From Watersipora subatra (Eukaryota; Bryozoa; Gymnolaemata; Cheilostomatida; Watersiporidae): a stretch of 64,000 nt of DNA. Of the stretch, positions 540 to 61,011 are shown one piece after another. Position numbers and translations under genes: made by a program. The stretch lies in NCBI RefSeq assembly GCF_963576615.1, contig NC_088708.1:49711196-49775195 (forward strand). The letters run 5' to 3'. Below the pieces are notes generated by a model, which did no database searches, was not told the DNA's origin, and saw nothing but the letters and a program-made list of their open reading frames with translations. Each line of letters opens with the position of its first letter. The first letter of the stretch is position 1.

Positions 540-2923
540 CGTTATTGTGATGGTTAGTTGTGTCAATACACCCGTCACAGCCGCCAATACAGGTGTGGAA
601 ACCAAGTTGCACCCAGTCTGCTATACGTGTAACCTGCAAAATAAAGGTCGTTAGGATTGATAGCCATCTCAAGCGAGTACCGAGCATTCTAAAACTGCTA
701 GTTAAAAACTAACTGCTGGTTGTGTATTGGCTTGATGATAGCAAAAGTAGAAAAACTATAAAAGCTATACATTAAACGATGCAAGCAAATTTAAGACTTT
801 ATGCAAAAATAAAATTTAAAATTAAATTTAAAATTTAAAATTACTGGAAGAGGCTGAGTAAATGTTTGAACACACCATCTGCGCCGTTATCCAATTTGTT
901 TGTAATAGGATATGGAATTCAATGGTTTGGCTCTCTCTCATTTTTTCAGCCAACTCTACCCAAGCATGACAGGATATGTGCGGAAACTGTTTATGCATGT
1001 ATCTCAAACCTAAACCACACGAGACAACGTCATCCTTTTTCAAGCCTACAGCAACCCAACACGAAACTCTTGCAGAAATAGATGTCATGAATATTAAGTA
1101 GCCAATCAGGTTTTGCCTACGCAGCACGTGGTGGTACTTGCACTTGACCACTTGATTGGAGTTGCCAAAAAAATTTAGATCAAAGATTCTAATTCTATTA
1201 AAGATGGAAGTGTAAAGACCTAGACCACAAACCACATTTTCATTTATCAAGAAAGGAAACACAAAGCTTAAGCACTAATTTACCTCAATCTCAAGCAAAT
1301 GACATGATCACATTACAGATGGCCTTACCAAACTTGTTTCATTAATTAAACATGGAAGAATGCGCCCATTTATCTTGGTCAAGTCACGCTTCCCTGACAT
1401 AATAGAAGAGGCGCAGCCCTGAAATCTGTTATCTGACAGTTTATTATCAATTGCTAGCGCTAAGATATGCTGGAGTCATTTCTTTAGCTACATGTACGTT
1501 TGAAACAAAGTTGAACCAAAAATTAAGCTTTGGTGATTTTATTGTTGCATAAAGCACTACGTGTAATGTTTATTCGTAGTTTCATATAATATATTTTCGA
1601 ATAATTTTAATCATTCAGTAAAACGTCAAACTTTCTTTGGGAGTCTTGACTTCATATCATTCAGCATTAACCATTATAAATATTACTGTTTGTTTTGATG
1701 TTTTTGAAATAATATTAACGCTAGTAAAATTGTCTGCAATCCTTCTTACTCTTCTTATAAAAATTTAGTAGTCGGAATACTCAATACTCACATCCTGTTG
1801 GAGCATACCATGCAGCTCACTCCTGATGTGACCTATCGCTGCTCCATTTGTTCTTTGAGCATTTCGCTGTTGTAGCATAGCTGGCTGCCTTGCTACAGGT
1901 CGATCATCAAGTAAGGGAGCTGAACGCAAATTTGGTCTTCCTCTGGTTACAGGTTGGCGAATGGGAGCAGGTGTCGGACGAACGTTTGGTCTTCCTCTGG
2001 TTACAGGTTGGCGAATGGGAGCAGGTGTCGGACGAACATTTGGTCTTCCTCTGGTTACAGGTTGGCGAATGGGAGCAGGCATTGGGCGAAAGTTGGGTGT
2101 TCGTCTGGTTATTGGTTGGCGAACAGGTGCAGGCGTTGGACGAAAGTTGGGTGTTCGTCTAGTTACTGGTTGGCGAACAGGAGCAGGTGCTTGTCGGAAA
2201 GCTGGTCTTGGTTGTGTGACAGGCTGACGAACAGGTGCAGGTGTTGGACGAAAGTTGGGTGTTCGTCTAGTTATTGGTTGCCGAATGGGAGCAGGTGCTT
2301 GTCGGAAGGCTGGTCTTGGTCGTGTCACTGACTGGCGAACAGGTGCAGGTGTTGGACGGAAGTTGGGTTTTCTTCTGGTTACAGGTTGTCGAACTGGAAC
2401 AGGTGCTGGACGAAAGTTGGGTGTTCGTCTGGTTACTGATTGGGGAACTGGTGCAGGTGCTTGTCGAAAGGCTGGCCTTGGTCGTGTGAAAGGTTGACGG
2501 TCAGGTGCAGGTGTCAGACGAGAATTGGGTCTTTTTCGAGTTGTAGGACGTCGAAACATCGTTGCTCCTTGACGAAATGTAGGCGATTGAAAGGCAACAG
2601 CTGTTTGTCGAAATGTCGGTGTTTGGTTTGTGACTGGTCGCATCGGAACAGTAGTTCGAAAATTTGACTGCTGCCTTCTTGGCCGAACAGGTTGTCGAAT
2701 AGGTTGCAAGTTTTTGTTTGTAGACAATTGAGATCTACCTGTGAGTCTGTCACTGTTTCTGAGCCTTTGTAATGGAGTCAAGGAACGTGATGGTTGGAAT
2801 GGATGAAGAAATGGTGATTTCGGTTGACTGGGTAGTAGTGGTCGACGGGGTTGAGGAAATCTACTACTGAAGCAATCAAACCGAAATGCATTCTGTGGAA
2901 GAGAGCATGCAGGAGGTCTGGTG
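540..2923 (-). CDS. Partial gene: Pro/Arg-rich repeat protein joined to a plant-type heme peroxidase-like domain
   Basis: Two minus-strand exons are visible. Exon A (2923 to 1792, after a good acceptor ending tttgcag; another acceptor puts its start at 2892) encodes an Arg/Pro/Gln-rich protein with about twelve 18-residue repeats. It ends with a helix-like stretch, IGHIRSELHGMLQQD, at a gtgagt donor. Exon B (633 to 540, ttttgcag acceptor, gtaaaa donor) encodes VTRIADWVQLGFHTCIGGCD and then GCID. Both junction phases are 0, so the exons join in frame. The exon B motif resembles helix B with the distal His of plant-type (class I-III) heme peroxidases, and the end of exon A fits helix A. The Arg normally four residues before the His is Gln here. 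Without splicing exon A would stop at 1765, with an AATAAA complement at 1569-1574. The start exon is unresolved; a possible small ATG exon with a gtaagt donor lies at 5457-5419. The rest of the peroxidase domain would lie left of position 1. The family call rests on motif recognition. Confidence 0.6.
634..1791 (-). other. Intron between the repeat exon and the peroxidase-like exon
   Basis: Inferred intron bounded by gtgagt at 1791-1786 and ttttgcag at 641-634 (minus strand). It contains a 144-codon open frame at 828-1262 (minus) with no family I recognise and AT-rich runs near 810-840. I see no further exon. Confidence 0.5.
1891..2538 (-). repeat. 54-bp coding tandem repeat (18-residue Pro/Arg units)
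   Basis: About twelve 54-bp units encode variants of RRTPNFRPTPAPVRQPVT. Two main types alternate irregularly: one with PNFRPTPAP and one with PAFRQAPAP. The three units nearest the C-terminal end are a third type (RGRPNVRPTPAP), consistent with local duplication. The array is basic and proline-rich with no cysteine, so it is likely disordered. Because it is periodic, antisense frames over it also stay open; those are not genes. Confidence 0.9.
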
Positions 2924-4380: not shown

Positions 4381-7300
4381 CTAAGAATAATTGTGCACAT
4401 AGTTATTACACATGACAATCTCTCACAGCGCACAGGACTACTAGCATACTAGTATTAGCAACAAATAAATGATAAAGTTTTAACCAATAGTAAAAGACAA
4501 GACTGACTAGAGAAGACTCATGAAATAACTGTGTTAGCAAATGCTATAAGTTTTATGCTATAACCATAACTCATGAAAAGGTACATGTTACTGTTACCGT
4601 ATTGGGGTTATATTTTATTCGAGCTGTTGAGTGTGCAGCATACAGTGATACCCTAAATGAAGGGGGGAAAGTTCACGCCCGGTGAAGGTGGTTTAAAAAT
4701 TATTAGTCTGGCAGCAAAGGCCCTTTTGCTCGGAAACCCAGAGCTCTTTGGTTCTAAGTATAAGCTCTATAAGTACTAGATGAGGGCAGGTTGGTTTGGT
4801 TGGTACCAGGGTGGAGTATATCTAATGTCAAAACTCATAATAAACACGAATGAATGGTAGAAGGATATGCATGGAGCCTTGTGGAAAAGAACTTATGTAA
4901 TGCATGTGTGACAGCTACATCTGGTGTTAAAATGAATAAAATTACAAAAAATAACAAATCTTGGAAACTCTATGCATTTTTGAACAACAAAAAATTAGAC
5001 TATGGATAAGGAGGTAGTTTATCGTGTCTGCTTTACATGCTTTTATCAGTATTTAGTACCCATAAATAGATAGTTTGAGAGCAAATACAGCATCGAGTTT
5101 TTACATATTCCGAATTGTGAACTAGCGTTGTTTAACTTAAAGAATGTTTTAGAATGATCATGACTGTTTTAAATGACCCTTAGGTGTTAATTTTAAACAA
5201 GTTGAATATTGTTGCTATGGGTTGAGATATTAAAATTATTGTATTCGTCTATGCAAAACTAAACTAATTTAATGAGTCAAAAACTGTATTTGCAAAAAAA
5301 CGATTAATGTGCCAAGTAGGGCTTAAACTGTCATCTTTACAATTCCAACAGTGCCATGATTTTCTGCAATGGCCCAAACTTTATTAAAACTAATCGCTTA
5401 CTCTTTGATAAAACTTACCATTAAAGATGAGAGTCCGGAATAGAGAACGCCTTTCATGGTGCCTATGACAGGGTACCAACAGTAGTACTGACAGCAAGAG
5501 ATCAATACATACAATGAGCTTCTCGTTATTGATGCGCGGAATTTGTAGTAAAATTGTTTGGCTGTATTTCTCAGAAGACTAATGAAAAATAGCTAGTAAA
5601 CCATCAACCTCTTATCTCCACCTGTCACCGTTCATGTCAGACTAATTAATGTAACCTAGCTGGTATGCGGAGGTACTTGTCGAGAAATGGTGATATGTTC
5701 AGGACAGCTGAATGCTAAACAAAAAGGATATATTCCAAGCAGAAATAAATTACCATCTATCTTATTGATGTCGTTGAGTGCTTGCGTATATATGGAAGAC
5801 ATGTCGAGGGTTGTTTACAGGCTAAACTCTCTATAGACTCCCTTATTATCTATATTAATGCTTATATAATTGAAAAGATATAATTTAGAATAAATATTAG
5901 ATATGATCAACCTGTCAAAAACCTCCAATCACTAACAACGTATTAATAAAACTTGAAGCGCGCAAATTTATGTAGATAAAATAAATATTATTTATTTTGA
6001 ACTTATTTGCTCTTCAATAGGTTTTGCTATATTTGACTTCAGACTCAAAGGAAGACGTTCTTATAGTTATATTTTGGATTTCATTATCAAGTCAACCGAT
6101 CATCTGCTATACTGCCATTTAGCACTCAATTACCAATTCGCCGCTTCACTTATGCATTACCTGTTGTTGAATAAATCTGCCATTAAATGATGCATTGATC
6201 TTAATCTCGATCAGCTCTTTAATTAACGCTTTTGCATAATAAACTGCTTAAACACTTACGTAAGTTAAAATAATAATTTATAAGCATCTATACTACAATA
6301 TAGGCTAAAACTAATCTAAAATATTTAATTTTTTACAGATCGCAATGAATTTGGTTCTAAGTTGAACCAAATTCATTTTAAATTTCAACACGCGACGAGC
6401 AACACTGTGAAACAGATTTGTAGTAAAGATAAACTCAATTTTTTAGATAAGTTTCAGTTTAACCAATTACTCCACTTGTTACTATTAGTGCAGAATTCTT
6501 TTGCAGCTTTGAATTCTACTATTACGTTTAGTCATAGAATTACTTTTAAGCATAAACAAAGGATAACCAACTATTCATACTTACACTATAATATACATAC
6601 AATGTACATAAATAGACATTAAAATTAAGTAAAATGTAAGTTAAACTTTTACAACGCTCTATTTTAATGTCAAGCACTTTCATGCACGAGACTATAAATC
6701 CTGCATCTATTGCATATAGACATATATATCACATAGTAACTTAGTGTAAATATCAGCTCTGCAGAAGGTTTTTTTCCTCACGGTTCTAGTATTCTTTGCT
6801 ATGCATAGATTAGGGGTGTTCTTTAAAAACTCCCTTTTCTGACCAATATTATGCAGCATGTATAAGTAGACTTGTACACCAGCATCATACTCTGAGGCTA
6901 TTGTCACACAGTGAAACACCGAAGACAGAATAATATATAATAAAATATATTACTACATTAGAGTAATATTATACAGCAATTTCATTTAAAAAATAAATAA
7001 AACTGTTCATGGCTATGTAATAGAATGTGAAAAACCATGGTCCTCTAGCAACACCTTTCAATCACCTGACACTATACTCTCAGCTCCTACAGTGCTACAA
7101 ACCTCACGTAATTGTAACAGCGATAACTCTGTGATTCGCCCCATATATGACTGAAGTATTATTGTCTTGTCAATGGTGCAGAATTCTACAACTTCTAGAG
7201 TTTTTGTAGCTCTGTACATTGATTATATATAATCTGTGAACAAGAAACAGGATATATTTTTTTCTATTATTAGTTGTAGTGTTTGGTAAACGTATGCAGA

Positions 7301-9326: not shown

Positions 9327-9404
9327 ATATATATAATATATATATATAATTGCTTTCCATTATTTCTGCAATTTCTGCAATTCCATTATTTCTGCAATTT
9401 CATA

Positions 9405-9514
9405 ACATTATATATATATATATAATATATATATATAATATATATATTATATATATAATATATATACTATGTATTATATATACAATATATATATATTATA
9501 TATATACAGTATAT
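9405..9514. repeat. (TA)n-rich microsatellite
   Basis: A long imperfect TA tract between the second core copy and the inverted 22-bp repeats. It mirrors the tract at 8635-8725. Confidence 0.9.
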
Positions 9515-9602
9515 ACTTCAGTACGTCAATACGACACATGTAGTTTACCAATACATCACACTCTGTCCACCAATACATCACATTTTGTTCACCAATACAT
9601 CA
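9515..9602 (-). repeat. Inverted counterpart of the 22-bp tandem repeat, about 3 copies
   Basis: Contains the reverse complement of the 8433-8610 units (accaatacatcacattttgt). It also mirrors the outer flank cttcagtacgtcaatacgac. It stops abruptly where LINE coding sequence starts, so the array was probably cut by that insertion. Confidence 0.85.
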
Positions 9603-10825
9603 TTTTGGGGATTATGCAAAGCAACATCAAACACGAAGCCGAGGTACGTCACAAAGCCATTACCGAATACAAGAAACGCCTTCGGCAGGTCTTACGGAGC
9701 CAGCTCAATGCCAAGAACCAAGTCATGGCAATAAATACCTACGCACTGACAGTAATAAGATATCCAGCAGGCATAATAAAGTGGACTGAGGAAGCCATCA
9801 AAGAAACAGATATAGCAACTCGTAAACTGTTGACCATGCATGGAGCACTCCACCCAAAATCTGATACCACTAGATTGTATCTTGATAGGAAAGATGGCGG
9901 TAGGGAACTCAAAAGTGTACAGCAGACAGTGAAAGAGGAGGAGCAAAGCATCAAAGCATATGCAGCCTCCATGGCCATCTCAGATAAGTTGCTAGCTGAA
10001 TTTCAATCGGCTGCTCTTACAACGGACCTACGCCCTGATGATGAGGAAATTGACTGGCACACGAAACCTCTTCATGGTGCTTACCACCAACAAATATCTA
10101 AGGTTGGCGATCTTCACCAGACATATATGTGGCTGAACAAAGGAAACCTAACGGCCAATACAGAGTCGCTAATCATGGCAGCCCAGGAGCAAGTGCTCCC
10201 AACAAGGCAACTCCAAACGAAAATCTATCACATTAGAGACGATCCGAGATGCAGACTGTGCAAAGATGCACCTGAGACCATCCAACACATCATCAGTGGA
10301 TGCAAGCAGCTAGCAGGGAACGCATACACTGAGCGGCATAATCATGTCGCAGGTGTTGTGTATAGAAGTCTATGTGATGAGTATGGCCTTAATAAACCAC
10401 AACACTGGTGGGAAGCTCCTGGTAAGGTCAATGAAAATGACCGGGTTAAGATCCTCTGAGACTTCTACATCCAAACTGACAAGCATGTCCTAGCAAACCA
10501 ACCAGATATAGTGGTGGTAGACAAGGAGAACAAGAGGGCTACTATAATAGATATAGCAGTACCCAATGACTACAATATAGCCAGCAAAGAAAAAGAAAAG
10601 GTAGAGAAATATCTCCCTCTTGGAGAAGAGATTGAAAAATGCTGGAATGTAAGAACAACTGTAATCCCAGTAGTCATTGGGGCACTGGGCGCAATAACAC
10701 CGGCACATAAAATGTGGCTTGCCCAAGTACCAACAGCAATCAACTCAGGTGAGTTGCAGAAAAGTGCGCTATTGGGAACAGCTAAGATCTTGAGGCGAGT
10801 GCTCAAACTCCCAGGTCTCTGGTAG
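9603..10825 (+). pseudogene. LINE ORF C-terminal fragment with one in-frame stop
   Basis: One reading frame runs from 9603 to the TAG at 10823-10825, ending LKLPGLW, and is broken only by TGA at 10457-10459. The context (VKIL-stop-DFYIQTDK) suggests TGG (Trp) became TGA. Key motifs are CRLC...H...C (C-x2-C-x8-H-x4-C, 10250-10303) and PDIVVVDK followed by IIDIAVP (from 10502), the PD...D core of restriction-like endonucleases. There is no reverse transcriptase active site or promoter. The almost intact frame suggests a fairly recent insertion. Confidence 0.8.
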
Positions 10826-20295: not shown

Positions 20296-23200
20296 TTACT
20301 TGCCATTGAAACAGCTCTGAGGGATGCTTAGTCGGATTCAATGTAACACAAGTCCTAATTTATTTACTCATATCACAAAATCATGAAAAGCCAGAAAGCT
20401 AAAAGAAATACTGGCTGATACTTACAAAGATCTTGGGTGACATTTTCTTTCTTTCGGCCATATCACCCCCCTCTTCTACTTCTTTCTTTTCATAATGGCT
20501 GAAGTCGTCGAAGATTGATGTAGTATGTTTGTAGTTATGTATGTGTTTCAAAACTTGCCTTCCTTTATCATATGGTACTTCTTGTGTGTCGCGGGAATTT
20601 GTCACAGGTTTGTTTTCATTATTTTCAAGTCGAATGTGGCGAAGTACACTATTTGGAACATCTTTCACATAAATCCACTTTATTTCCATACTACCTTTCC
20701 ATTTATCTTGTGTCCAGACACCCGCATGTGTCTGGTAGTCTACACCAGACATCATCTGGGCCATGCCACAGAAATGGCCACTACCATTAACTGAGTAGAA
20801 CAGATAAATTGGACCCTTGCCTTCTCTGTCTTTAAAAGCATCATCTAACCGCTTGTTACCATGTTCAGTGCTGCACCAAACGCGATATTTGATGGCCCGA
20901 TGAATATCGTCCTCAGAGTAGCTTTTAATAACAAAAAACCTAGCATTCTTAGGATTCAATTCGAATGACTTCGGATTGTAAGCGTTAGACTGCTTTAGCT
21001 GGCTCAGAGTCGTATCAGTTTCAGACTCTTCTGAACGCTGACCAGAGGTACGATCAGCATTAGAAGCGTTGCTGTTACGATTACTTCTAGGTGCTGACCA
21101 GTTGCTAGTCCGTTGATTTTGGCCTCCAGAGCCACCCCTAGAGGCACCTTTTTCCCAGCTGTTTTCTGAAACTGATTTGGCTGGCGGCGATGGTCTAGTC
21201 AAAATCTTGGGTGCTACCGGAACTGGCTTAGCCGGAGTTTTGGCAATGTTTGCCCAGGAAACGCTCTTGGGTTGTTGAGATGTTGAATTCGAAGCAGATG
21301 CACTAGAGTTATTTATGTTACCACTCTCATGCAATGATGTCTCGCTCGGCGATTCCTGACTGTCTTCTGCATCACCACTAACAGTCACTTTTTGCAAGCT
21401 CTGGTCTAGATCTGCCACCTCATCTCCTTCCACAACAACATCCTGACCGTTAGTCACTGGCAGCTGATGGTTACCAGCTGGGCTAGGATACACTCCACCA
21501 TAAGCTTGGTCCATCGATGGTATATAGGTTTGTCCGTCCACAATTTTCATTGGATCTTGTTGCACAGAAGTTGCAGACCATTCGGGATAGTCACTAGCGC
21601 TGTAACTGTTCCAAAAGCCAGCTGTGTTGTACCCGAAGCCAGGAAATTGCTGCATATAGTCTACATTAGGCTGTTGACCATAACTTCCCAGATATGACAG
21701 CGTGTCAGCGCTAGATGTTGCCCAAGGAGTCGTGCCATCAAAAAAAGCATTTGGATAGCCGATAGTTGGGTAATAACTGTAACCTTCCGGTGTTGGACTG
21801 GGCATCTGCATTGTGGCATTGTACTGTGCCTTCAAGCAAAATGAAACTTGTATAATCCCATTAAATCAAATTTCAAACAAAATGACAACATATGGTTTTA
21901 TACTACATAGATGGTTCTGTGAGCGATCTTGGACTAACTACATTTAAACAAGAAAATGTAAGGCTGTCAAAAAATCGGCAATACGCTTTTACTAGGTTGT
22001 CACAATCAATTAACCAAAAGCAGTTTTTTGAGAAACTACACATTTTCTGTTTGCCATTATTACGAAGTGTATCTGTTGGTTTGAAAGAGTTATGAGCAGT
22101 GTGTAACAACAAGTTTTCATTGAATTAAATTAGTTATATCATTGGAAAATTGCATTTTACACTGGTGTAATCATGTGTGTCCTAGGCCAAACCTTTAGTA
22201 CCACTTTTATTAATAGATGTTCCTAAAACTGTATCTCCAAATCACTTGATCAAACATAACTATACAAATTAATGAAGAGTTGGATGTTAAAGAAATTTGC
22301 TTTGATTGTTTTTATCAACTAGTAAAGATTGTGGTTTTACAGTTCTGGTCAGAGAGTATAACAAGGAATTGGGTAAATGTAATTGGTTAAGCAAATTTTA
22401 TTACTGAATGATATATCAAAACAGTTGAGTCAAGTTCAAGGAAATACAAAGCTAATCATTTTTGCCAAACTTTTGCAATGGCAATGCAACTGCGTTTTTA
22501 TATCCTACAAATGTAGAATAAATATTTTGACAAGTTTTGCTATGACTATTGCAAATCGAAACATTTTAGGTGGAGGCCCTAATAAAATAGTTGCGAAGCA
22601 AAATACCATATGGTACCTTATAACTCATTGTCATCACAATGGGATTAATTATAATCAAACCACCAGTGAGTTTACTTGGAAATATCGTATGTGAAAAAAC
22701 CAAAGCATTTGCTAAATATAATAGCTTTCTCATGAGTACTGTTAATTAGTATTTTATGCGACTAAAGATAAACCATTTTATCTTGTAAAATTTTTAACAC
22801 ATCTATTTGGAAAGATTTCAACACTATATATTCAGGGTTCCACTACTACCTTGGACAAATCTAAGTTACCACATCATTTATTTTAAGGTTAGCCAAGTTA
22901 ATATGCAAACACTATATCCCAATCCAATGTATCTAGCTACTTCATTTACTAGATAGAACTCAACTTGGATAACAAAAATTCAACTCATATAAAAGAACTA
23001 CCAAAAGCTTTATTCACCTCATAAGTGTTATACAGGGCAAATATTTATATGCTATTGTGAACAAAAGCTCTTTCTGCGATGAGTAATGAAATATTTTCAG
23101 CATAACCTATATGAAGCACAACCAAAATTCACGCGCATTAGTTTGCGCATGAATTTTGGTCGCACATCAATGCAACCTAAACCATTTGCACGCCACAAAT

Positions 23201-26200
23201 GTTGGTATCATACTCTTTCCAGCAACAAGAAGCACACAACTTGTGATATCACCAGAACCAAATTACTACGAGGTAAGGAAGGAAATAATGGCGGTCCAGT
23301 CAAGACAATTATGGGTTCAAGTTAATGATTGATCTCGGATCTGACAAAACAACTTGTTTGTTTTAACGCTACAACACCATGCACAACAGTTCACAGTGAA
23401 TCATACCTATCTAATAATGGGTTTACAATTCAACCATCATACACTAGTTAGCAACAACTATATATTCCAAAAACCATTGCAACAAATTCAACCCAGAATT
23501 AATCACAGTGGTTATTAGTAGTTTGGGCTTACCATCATCGTTTCAAACCGGGCCAACGCCTACAGATGCAACACAATTATACCTACACTTGTTTTCACAA
23601 AACATAAAAAGATGAATTTTTAAATTATTCTTCACATGTAGTTGTTTTTTGCGAGGGACACAGTAGTTTCCATTTTCACCAGTGGAACGATCAGAAAGTG
23701 ACATATCTACACAGTGATGAGTAACGTACAAAAGCCATACTATGTAAAAAACAAAATCTGTTACTTTTACCTGCTGAGGTAAAGGCTGGGCATGCATTTG
23801 CGTATGAGCTTGGGTGTATTCATACTCATCATGCCTTACTCCGCTGCCGCCATTCACTAAAATATGATTAGGAAATTATATTTAAAGTAACTCGGGTTAT
23901 TATGTCTATTGTAATAGTTTACACAGGAGATACTTTGAACACATTGAAAAAGTAAATGAGAAGCATGCATCAAAATTACACCTCATGGACATTATTCTCC
24001 ATAGAAGTGCATTCTTTTTAACGAATCTCTGGGTGAAACCAATCTATGGTTGCAGGATTAGGACAAATTTACTTTTTGATAAGTTGTATTAAAAATCGAG
24101 AGACGATATTCTTACTGCTAGCCAGTTTTAGCAACTAGTACAATGGTTTTTCTATAATTATATCAAGTTATATGCCTCTTTTTCTACTTTTAGCTGCATG
24201 CAGCATTATTGTAAAATTGTATTTTCGTCGCTCGAGACATACACAGTTAACCACGAGATACAAATAATAATATAAATGACAGTATACAGAAAACAATGCA
24301 AAAATGAACTCATCTTTGAAAAAATGACTTGTAGGTACAAGAGTGAAATGATTGATGACGTGTTAAGCCGGTGCCTCTCAATTATTCGCTCTTATAACCT
24401 CTATTGAGAAGAAAACATCTTGCCTTATACCCCTGTGGCTATAAATAATATCATTTGTCTATAAAATGGCTACGACCACACCTCTGCATAGAAATACATT
24501 TTTATTAATTAATGTTGAAGAAAAAATAAAGTAAGAAGACCAACTTACAACATAGAATAAATTTATTAGCTGTATGCGCCTGGTCTGTGTGAGGTGCAAC
24601 AAATCCCCTACACCCCTGGTACGAATTCTCCATGTACACATGATAATGAGAGCGCTACTGCTCCTAATGCAGGGGAGGTGCAATCACAATTTATTCTAGG
24701 ACAACAAGAGTTTCTCAAGGTCACACACACCCACTCATTGATGGAGCCTCACACCCTTGCAGGAGGAGGCATACCACTATTTGCGAAGGAATACATTATG
24801 CTAAACTGAGGTTTTACATACCTTGCCCTGGATGGGTTTGTTGCTGCTGCTGATTTTTACCTCGCTAAAAAAAAATAGAATTGATAACTACCACTTCTAA
24901 AAACTTTTTAATGGATATATGATATGGATGGTTTTAGAAATTCCACATATCCACACATTTACATGATGAAATATATAAGTTTAACTGACTTAAAATTAGT
25001 GCTGTTTTTTTGTATATAAATCTACACAAAAAAATGTAATTGAAATGTATAGAACTGAAATTGCAAGACTAGGCAATTACTCTTCCTGTATATTTGATAA
25101 GCTCAAAATTCTTATCAAGTTAAGAGATAAAGTAGCAGAGTAAGCTTTGTATAATCAGGAAACACTGTAACATGAAGCACGAAAGATTAAACATGTAAAT
25201 TGATTTTCAAGGAGAAGTAAATATGTAGCTGTGTAAGTGATGTCTAGCCGAAGCAGCAGTGACTCCAATAAATAGGTATTATTAAACAATTTCGGTAAAA
25301 CAAGCCCAACCCGTGGCCTGGGTGGTACACCCTAAGTGACCTTAGGATGTAGCCTGTCTTGACAAACTGTTGTTTTGCAGTTGTCCCCCCCCCCGTCGAG
25401 CGGGCGAGCAATACAACAGCTTGCCACAAGACGTACTGCATGTGATGCATCAGCTCCATTGGTAATCATAACGAATTTCACGCAAAAACTTATGTAGCAA
25501 AAAATAAGATTACAACGTTTAACCAATGACCAGTCTCTGAGGCAACAACTTAGGCAACAACTTAGGCAACAACAATGACTAAACATGTCGTTATTTGTGC
25601 GCTCAGTCAGTTTTATTTCTATTTTTGTATCAGTCAGTTTTATTTGTTCTTATGGATTTCATTTTCATTTTATTCTTAAGTTCTACTAAAGTTTCCAACA
25701 GAGACTGGTCTTTGGTTAAACGTTGTCATCTTATTTTTTTCTACATAAATTTTTGCGCGAAATCCGTTGATTACCAATGGAGCGATCGCCATAACATCGC
25801 AACCAAGCTGCATAGACGGAAGAGAACAACTTCCTTTCAGTGCAGCTGATGCATCAGGTGCAGTACGTCTTGTGACAAGCTGTTGTGTTGCTCGCCCCCT
25901 CGACGGGGGACAACTCCGCAAAAACAACAGTTTGTCAAGACAGGCTACTTAGGCTGTGGCCTGTGAAGATTCATATTAGACACGACAAAATTCAGCATTA
26001 TTTGGCTAAATTAGTAAACTTTGACCCAAGCCGCACTAAAATTCATTCTTGTCAATATCATGTCAAGTTGTTGGTATTTAATGCAATAGCCTTGTATAAT
26101 TTTATTTTTGTAATGAAAAACACTTTTAATGTACTACATTGGTACAGCAAGTGTCACCGAGCATGGTTTTAGAGCAGAAATATACACTTTAAGGACCATA

Positions 26201-27716: not shown

Positions 27717-61011
<33,295 letters not shown>

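Follow-up and report, generated by a model that had tools for sequence, protein, structure and literature searches.

A peroxidase-catalase-superfamily gene with a distal glutamine and an Arg/Pro-rich repeat head in the bryozoan Watersipora subatra

Animal members of the peroxidase-catalase superfamily (Pfam family PF00141) have been described before, in passages of PMC4232752 and PMC4420034, and most of them are predicted to be secreted (PMC4232752). Two PF00141 members are found among the transcripts of the Hydra basal disc, the glue region of the animal, as listed in a section of PMC5080974. The distal triad R-XX-W/F-H is given as the superfamily signature in a passage of PMC4420034, and its Arg is a suggested proton-delivery element in ascorbate peroxidase, according to extracts of PMC8489226 and PMC12684355. 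Here we describe a gene of W. subatra in which a domain of this superfamily has Gln in place of the distal Arg and is preceded by a long basic head containing an Arg/Pro-rich repeat array. The repeat fusion and the Gln subgroup are apparently unreported, the domain family in animals being known: a literature search of partial coverage returned no report of an Arg/Pro repeat fusion or of a distal-Gln subgroup.

The window, that is, the whole stretch of 64,000 nucleotides that was analysed, corresponds to C1:49711196-49775195 of the 783.7 Mb genome, and the 10 kb adjoining it on the left are called L001. The gene lies on the minus strand and leaves the window on the left. We recognise seven exons (2 to 8) with gt-ag sites, junction phases 0, 1, 1, 1, 2, 0, and an open frame that leads to a TAA stop:

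Exon 2, 2923-1792, minus strand: 377 codons, a Pro/Arg/Thr-rich basic head whose last part is the peroxidase helix A (HIRSELHGMLQQD)
Start of intron 2 (gtgagt), 1791-1765, minus strand: segment closed by the read-through stop
Exon 3, 633-540, minus strand: helix B, with the distal Gln-Phe-His (VQLGFHTC) and GGCDGC
Intron 3 (gtaaaact...), 539-1, continuing left beyond the window, minus strand: gt-ag reading with flank sequence
Exon 4, window -893 to -1015 (L001:9107-8985), minus strand: placed by gt-ag sites and phase chain
Exon 5, window -1430 to -1594 (L001:8570-8406), minus strand: placed by gt-ag sites and phase chain
Exon 6, window -2565 to -2703 (L001:7435-7297), minus strand: placed by gt-ag sites and phase chain
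Exon 7, window -3516 to -3675 (L001:6484-6325), minus strand: placed by gt-ag sites and phase chain
Exon 8, window -4634 to -4735 (L001:5366-5265), minus strand: placed by gt-ag sites, ends at the TAA stop

The splice sites in the flank were picked by eye so that the frame holds. In exon 7, a second in-phase gt follows ...KQFT; of the two sites, the one giving the longer product was used. A search by reading for a signal-peptide exon of the window gene gave weak candidates only, none of them convincing.

Inside the window, the repeat ORF spans 2949-1765 on the minus strand and ends in a stop codon. A sequence-only reading of the same DNA had placed a gtgagt donor 24 bp ahead of this stop and joined it in phase to the exon with the distal His, and its coordinates hold. 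Exon 2 is bounded by an acceptor ttttgcag|C and a donor GAT|gtgagt after base 1792, 24 bp ahead of the stop, while exon 3 begins at 633 after ttttgcag|GTT and codes for VTRIADWVQLGFHTCIGGCDGCIDTTNHHNN plus one base; the junction is in phase 0 on either side. With a self-written splice matrix, generic rather than trained on this species, the 1792 donor ranks first among the 52 GT sites of 2923-1765, and it alone among the four top-scoring GTs has the phase required by exon 3. A DNA pattern for FHxCxGGCDGC has a single match in the window, and none of 100 shuffles contains it. We consider the exon-intron layout between exon 2 and the stop, the family and the heme-ligand residues to be established from sequence: the window gene is a real gene, open across the part read, which codes for a two-part protein.

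The 1792/633 junction had also been claimed to restore a plausible helix A-helix B pair, and a Pfam scan of eight peptides agrees with this. The join matched PF00141; no match came from exon 3 by itself, from the unspliced read or from any of the four alternative donors, so that of five donors only 1792 gave a match (the positive control, a banyan peroxidase fragment, scored 48 bits). The joined 48 residues match from profile position 1 with 15.3 bits (E 0.018), which is below the curated cut-off of 27, and the ORFs given to Pfam separately had no match. A class III profile built from five plant fragments selected the 633 acceptor among 96 tried (12.8 bits, versus 6.1 for the runner-up), put the exon 3 ORF on top of the 1,432 window ORFs of at least 25 residues, and scored the joined peptide above all but 2 of 20,000 shuffles; the 1792 donor was absent from the eight best of the 291 tried with it. 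When the joined 48 residues were searched against the PDB, designed proteins matching by composition came first (E 2.1e-5) and plant peroxidases lower (E 0.14 and 0.23), with Gln placed under Arg in the alignment. Exon 3 alone returned designed proteins only, composition matches to GG-D-G that we dismissed.

Since the plant-profile and PDB results are unkind to the join, we placed the weight on the left flank and on the paralogs. In each of the five distal-Gln genes for which the helix-A exon was found (the window gene and the paralogs C3, C5a, C7a and C7b), helix A closes with a gt donor in phase 0; in a sixth, C9a, the helix-A exon was not found. The 1792 donor, recurring in four paralogs, is thus supported by homology. 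The position of the 633 acceptor recurs in five Gln paralogs.

On the left flank, the proximal-His part of the domain, which the sequence-only reading had proposed to look for there, is present in five in-phase exons. The search with the Pfam peroxidase model that it had also proposed gives, for the spliced 280-residue domain, 70.5 bits and an E value of 2.4e-19 over profile positions 2-227 of 237, above the cut-off of 27. By this match, the domain is a complete heme domain of the peroxidase-catalase superfamily. It is mildly acidic (pI 5.6) and contains seven Cys. The distal positions are Q29, F32 and H33, and the proximal ones H150 and W166, both aligned with those of yeast cytochrome c peroxidase (CcP); D214 was assigned by eye from MMLNADMA, which we take to be its usual context, and lies outside the CcP alignments shown. 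The distal triad reads Q-LG-F-H, with Phe and His kept and Gln for Arg. This substitution, already claimed from the window alone, is real and common to six genes of the genome. The homology holds despite the broken triad, and canonical activity does not follow from it; the peroxidase activity of the Gln domain may be lost.

A PDB search with the domain gave 167 solved sequences with E values up to 0.01, and the best 60 were all CcP or its construct (best E for the yeast enzyme 1.4e-18, many chains near 5e-16), in alignments that start past the distal helix. By these matches, the domain is nearest to class I, typified by yeast CcP, and not to plant class III, which corrects the description of a plant-type peroxidase-like domain given from the window alone. 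A PF00141 family search of the whole genome (783.7 Mb) found nothing with an E value of 0.001 or lower, which is expected because the individual exons are short. NCBIfam returned only catalase-peroxidase matches, far under cut-off. In the viral and prokaryote collections, the FHxCxGGCDGC pattern had no exact match and the domain no relative.

A protein search of the genome at E 10 gave at least 59 exon-sized matches, seven of which are pieces of the window gene, and revealed at least 20 more 'plant-type' peroxidase loci, some of them with basic heads. The family seems to have grown partly through local duplication; in 304 kb, no paralog close to the window gene was found at a useful score (next best E 0.23). 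Paralogs were read at their distal and proximal exons, which were assigned to each other by their proximity along the contig (about 16 kb apart in C3). The distal exon is covered by 21 matches outside the window gene, 20 of which were taken (C7:41581242 was left out), and all 20 were readable. With the window gene included, the column of the distal Arg holds Gln in six exons (window, C3, C5a, C7a, C7b, C9a) and Arg in 15, the distal His is present in 21/21, and the distal Phe in 20/21 (Tyr in C5d). The proximal exons were readable at 15 loci, among them all six Gln genes: His is found in 15/15 and Trp in 14/15 (Phe in C1b), and Asp in the four genes readable at that column. As far as the exons were read, the heme-binding residues thus appear to be kept while the Arg varies. 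With Gln present in six genes, the substitution is not the product of decay in a single copy.

A predicted intron position also sets the Gln genes apart. A phase-0 AG, the predicted acceptor, is located exactly 11 codons ahead of the distal Phe in 6/6 Gln genes and in 0/15 Arg genes. Five Arg genes (C5b-C5e and C9b) have a phase-0 AG 12 codons ahead of the distal aromatic residue, and the other 10 have a predicted acceptor at neither distance. This predicted shared intron, a rare character, points to one Gln group within an intron-bearing group. In a tree built from 14 genes over 80 columns, a clade of the Gln genes was neither recovered nor rejected (AU 0.41).

The basic repeat announced by the sequence-only reading is present, not as a tail but as a head, N-terminal to the peroxidase. 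It consists of 11 tandem units of 54 bp, or 18 residues, in register at 2514-1921 on the minus strand (type TPAPVRQPVTRRTPNFRP); Tandem Repeats Finder reports 1934-2533, period 54, 11.1 copies. Third codon positions account for 383 of the 746 pairwise differences among the units (permutation p 0.0014). The pN/pS ratio of the frame used here, 0.37, is the lowest of the six, the other five giving 0.59-2.23; as the units share a duplication history, these pairwise comparisons are not independent. From the contrast between frames and the third-position excess, the array looks translated in this frame and under protein-level constraint. The exon 2 product is rich in Pro (20%), Arg (19%) and Thr (10%), with a pI of 12, and carries 74 Arg+Lys versus 7 acidic residues, a net charge of about +67 over 377 residues. 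Judged from composition alone, the head is presumably disordered. Tyr and Trp are absent from it, and the lack of Tyr suggests that the head anchors the protein and is not a substrate for dityrosine formation.

Heads were compared within the Gln genes only, and are not assignable as a trait of that group. The C5a head measures 166 residues to the donor from an arbitrary start (Pro 14.5%, Arg 14.5%, pI 12), and no 18-residue array was seen in it by eye. C7b has a basic head of 133 residues, with a signal-like start (MYKLMMCLLLPLIVYVHCQ) and a TRPTRKDRPTTRPPRRSTTR stretch; that of C7a has 99 residues and a hydrophobic N-terminus. The reading of the C3 head exon gives 57 residues and may include intron. 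Signal-like N-termini, read by eye, are thus found in two paralogs, C7a and C7b.

Several other features were noted in the window and around the paralogs. PF00141-like exons form clusters at C5:57.3-58.2 Mb and C7:4.87-4.89 Mb, and three paralogs (L045-L047) have long simple-sequence arrays immediately 3' of their distal exon; in L049 such arrays lie farther downstream. The window contains a YTH-domain gene (PF04146, 3e-50) at 20402-21865 minus, a fibrillarin exon (PF01269, 1e-82) at 30756-31295 plus, and leucine-rich-repeat exons at 43782-44027 and 46733-47089 plus. Together with the gt-ag introns and the size of the genome, these neighbours are in keeping with an animal. A dispersed element is seemingly repeated on both strands at 25335-25948, 35074-35446, 59910-60255 and 60333-60710, where the ORF texts are similar by eye. 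Satellite-like arrays occupy 48705-49427 and 50183-50532 (36 copies of a 20-bp unit with 95% matches, and an array in which 20-, 79- and 99-bp periods are nested). Retroelement remains are suggested at 9350-10456 plus by a zf-RVT match under cut-off and, in L001, at about 400-2700 minus by ORFs that look by eye like gag, protease and RT. Farther left, L002 has at 4685-5098 minus (window -14902 to -15315) an ORF resembling by eye a dual-specificity phosphatase (VHCNAGVSRSAA), which may be the adjacent gene on that side. Rfam and tRNA searches had no match.

What could such a protein do? On balance, we lean towards a matrix-anchored secreted peroxidase of slowed or changed chemistry, most likely engaged in oxidative cross-linking. 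The signal-like N-termini of two paralogs speak for an extracellular protein, as does the published prediction for animal members. The sequence-only reading had suggested that the repeat could bind matrix, cell wall or nucleic acid. Judging by its composition only, the basic head would hold the protein electrostatically on a negatively charged matrix outside the cell (sulfated glycans, acidic proteins, cuticle, shell or glue). The kept residues suggest heme binding and a reaction with H2O2; with its charged distal Arg gone, the domain would form Compound I more slowly or by another route. The oxidant so made would be slow or specialised and would most likely cross-link neighbouring matrix proteins, a role in matrix or adhesive proposed here by analogy with the Hydra basal-disc transcripts and with shell peroxidase-like proteins. 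A more far-reaching proposal, which we hold only tentatively, is that a conserved animal subgroup swapped the catalytic distal Arg for Gln, kept the residues on the heme side, and performs other peroxide chemistry (a slow one-electron oxidation, for example, or a transfer of the peroxygenase kind) at a place fixed by evolving basic heads, the 11-unit Arg/Pro array being the extreme case. Six genes of one genome with both His and the proximal Trp but without the Arg amount to a ready-made experiment on the role of that Arg, and peroxidase loci with basic heads bear on the hardening of cuticle, shell, tubes or glue in invertebrates.

The Gln domain could also be a pseudo-peroxidase without peroxide chemistry, the protein being a heme-binding or structural matrix component of which the repeat is the functional part. 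The replacement of the signature Arg (as given in a passage of PMC4420034) in six genes would fit, as would a head that is longer than the rest of the window protein (377 versus 260 residues). We nevertheless find this unlikely, as both His, distal and proximal, and the proximal Trp are kept in 6/6 Gln genes, and the Asp in 4/4 readable, residues for which a protein without heme chemistry would have no need. Alternatively, the repeats may act as an effector, a secreted antimicrobial or membrane-active segment, perhaps cleaved off, paired with an oxidant-making domain in an immune protein. With 19% Arg, 20% Pro and a pI of 12, the head resembles, we assume, proline-rich antimicrobial peptides; the Thr/Pro/Arg heads of the other Gln paralogs are however non-repetitive and closer to a linker than to a peptide array, which makes this reading improbable.

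Two further explanations concern the transcript rather than the chemistry. If intron 2 were often retained, a repeat-only protein ending in DVSIEYSDY would be produced beside or instead of the fusion, and the frame does extend 24 bp beyond the donor to a stop. Yet the 1792 donor ranks first of the 52 GTs, the intact downstream domain implies splicing, and in C3, C5a and C7a the donor is likewise followed by a read-through 'VS', which is just how gtgagt or gtaagt translates; we give this scenario little credit. That an unrelated repeat gene and a neighbouring peroxidase gene were paired by chance is harder still to believe, even if the class III profile passes over the 1792 donor: helix A ends the repeat exon, among five donors scanned the PF00141 match comes with 1792 alone, four paralogs show the same helix-A/donor layout, and the peroxidase would otherwise be without a helix A.

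Taken as a matrix-anchored peroxidase, the window protein can be compared with several known systems. The metazoan putative ascorbate peroxidases of Hydra, a sponge and the sea louse are likewise PF00141 proteins in animals, mostly predicted to be secreted; compared by their description, a repeat-array head and a distal Gln go unmentioned in the passages concerned (PMC4232752). The best solved relatives are yeast CcP and class I, whose proximal His and Trp align with those of the window domain. CcP is mitochondrial and has a distal Arg-Trp-His; the window protein differs in its Gln-Phe-His and in carrying a basic head. Plant class III peroxidases (banyan, Arabidopsis, horseradish) align weakly in the helix A-B segment (E 0.14, 0.23) and have a Cys pair around the distal turn; unlike the window protein, they show the distal Arg and FHDC in alignments, and their proximal residue is Phe rather than Trp. 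PRELP, which binds heparin, is a leucine-rich repeat protein without an enzyme, unlike the window protein, and the haem_peroxidase proteins of limpet shell belong, we presume, to an unrelated animal superfamily. PRELP does offer a Pro/Arg-rich segment on an extracellular matrix protein, named for this Pro/Arg-rich end in an extract of PMC7948961. The limpet shell peroxidase-like proteins, listed as haem_peroxidase in part of PMC4094399, are heme peroxidases of the extracellular space in which long segments are predicted to be disordered, and are proposed there to cross-link the matrix. Finally, the fungal Hybrid B peroxidases, as outlined in a section of PMC5571214, likewise fuse a heme domain of the superfamily to a presumed targeting module, which is a C-terminal sugar-binding domain in the fungal enzymes and an N-terminal basic repeat in the window protein.
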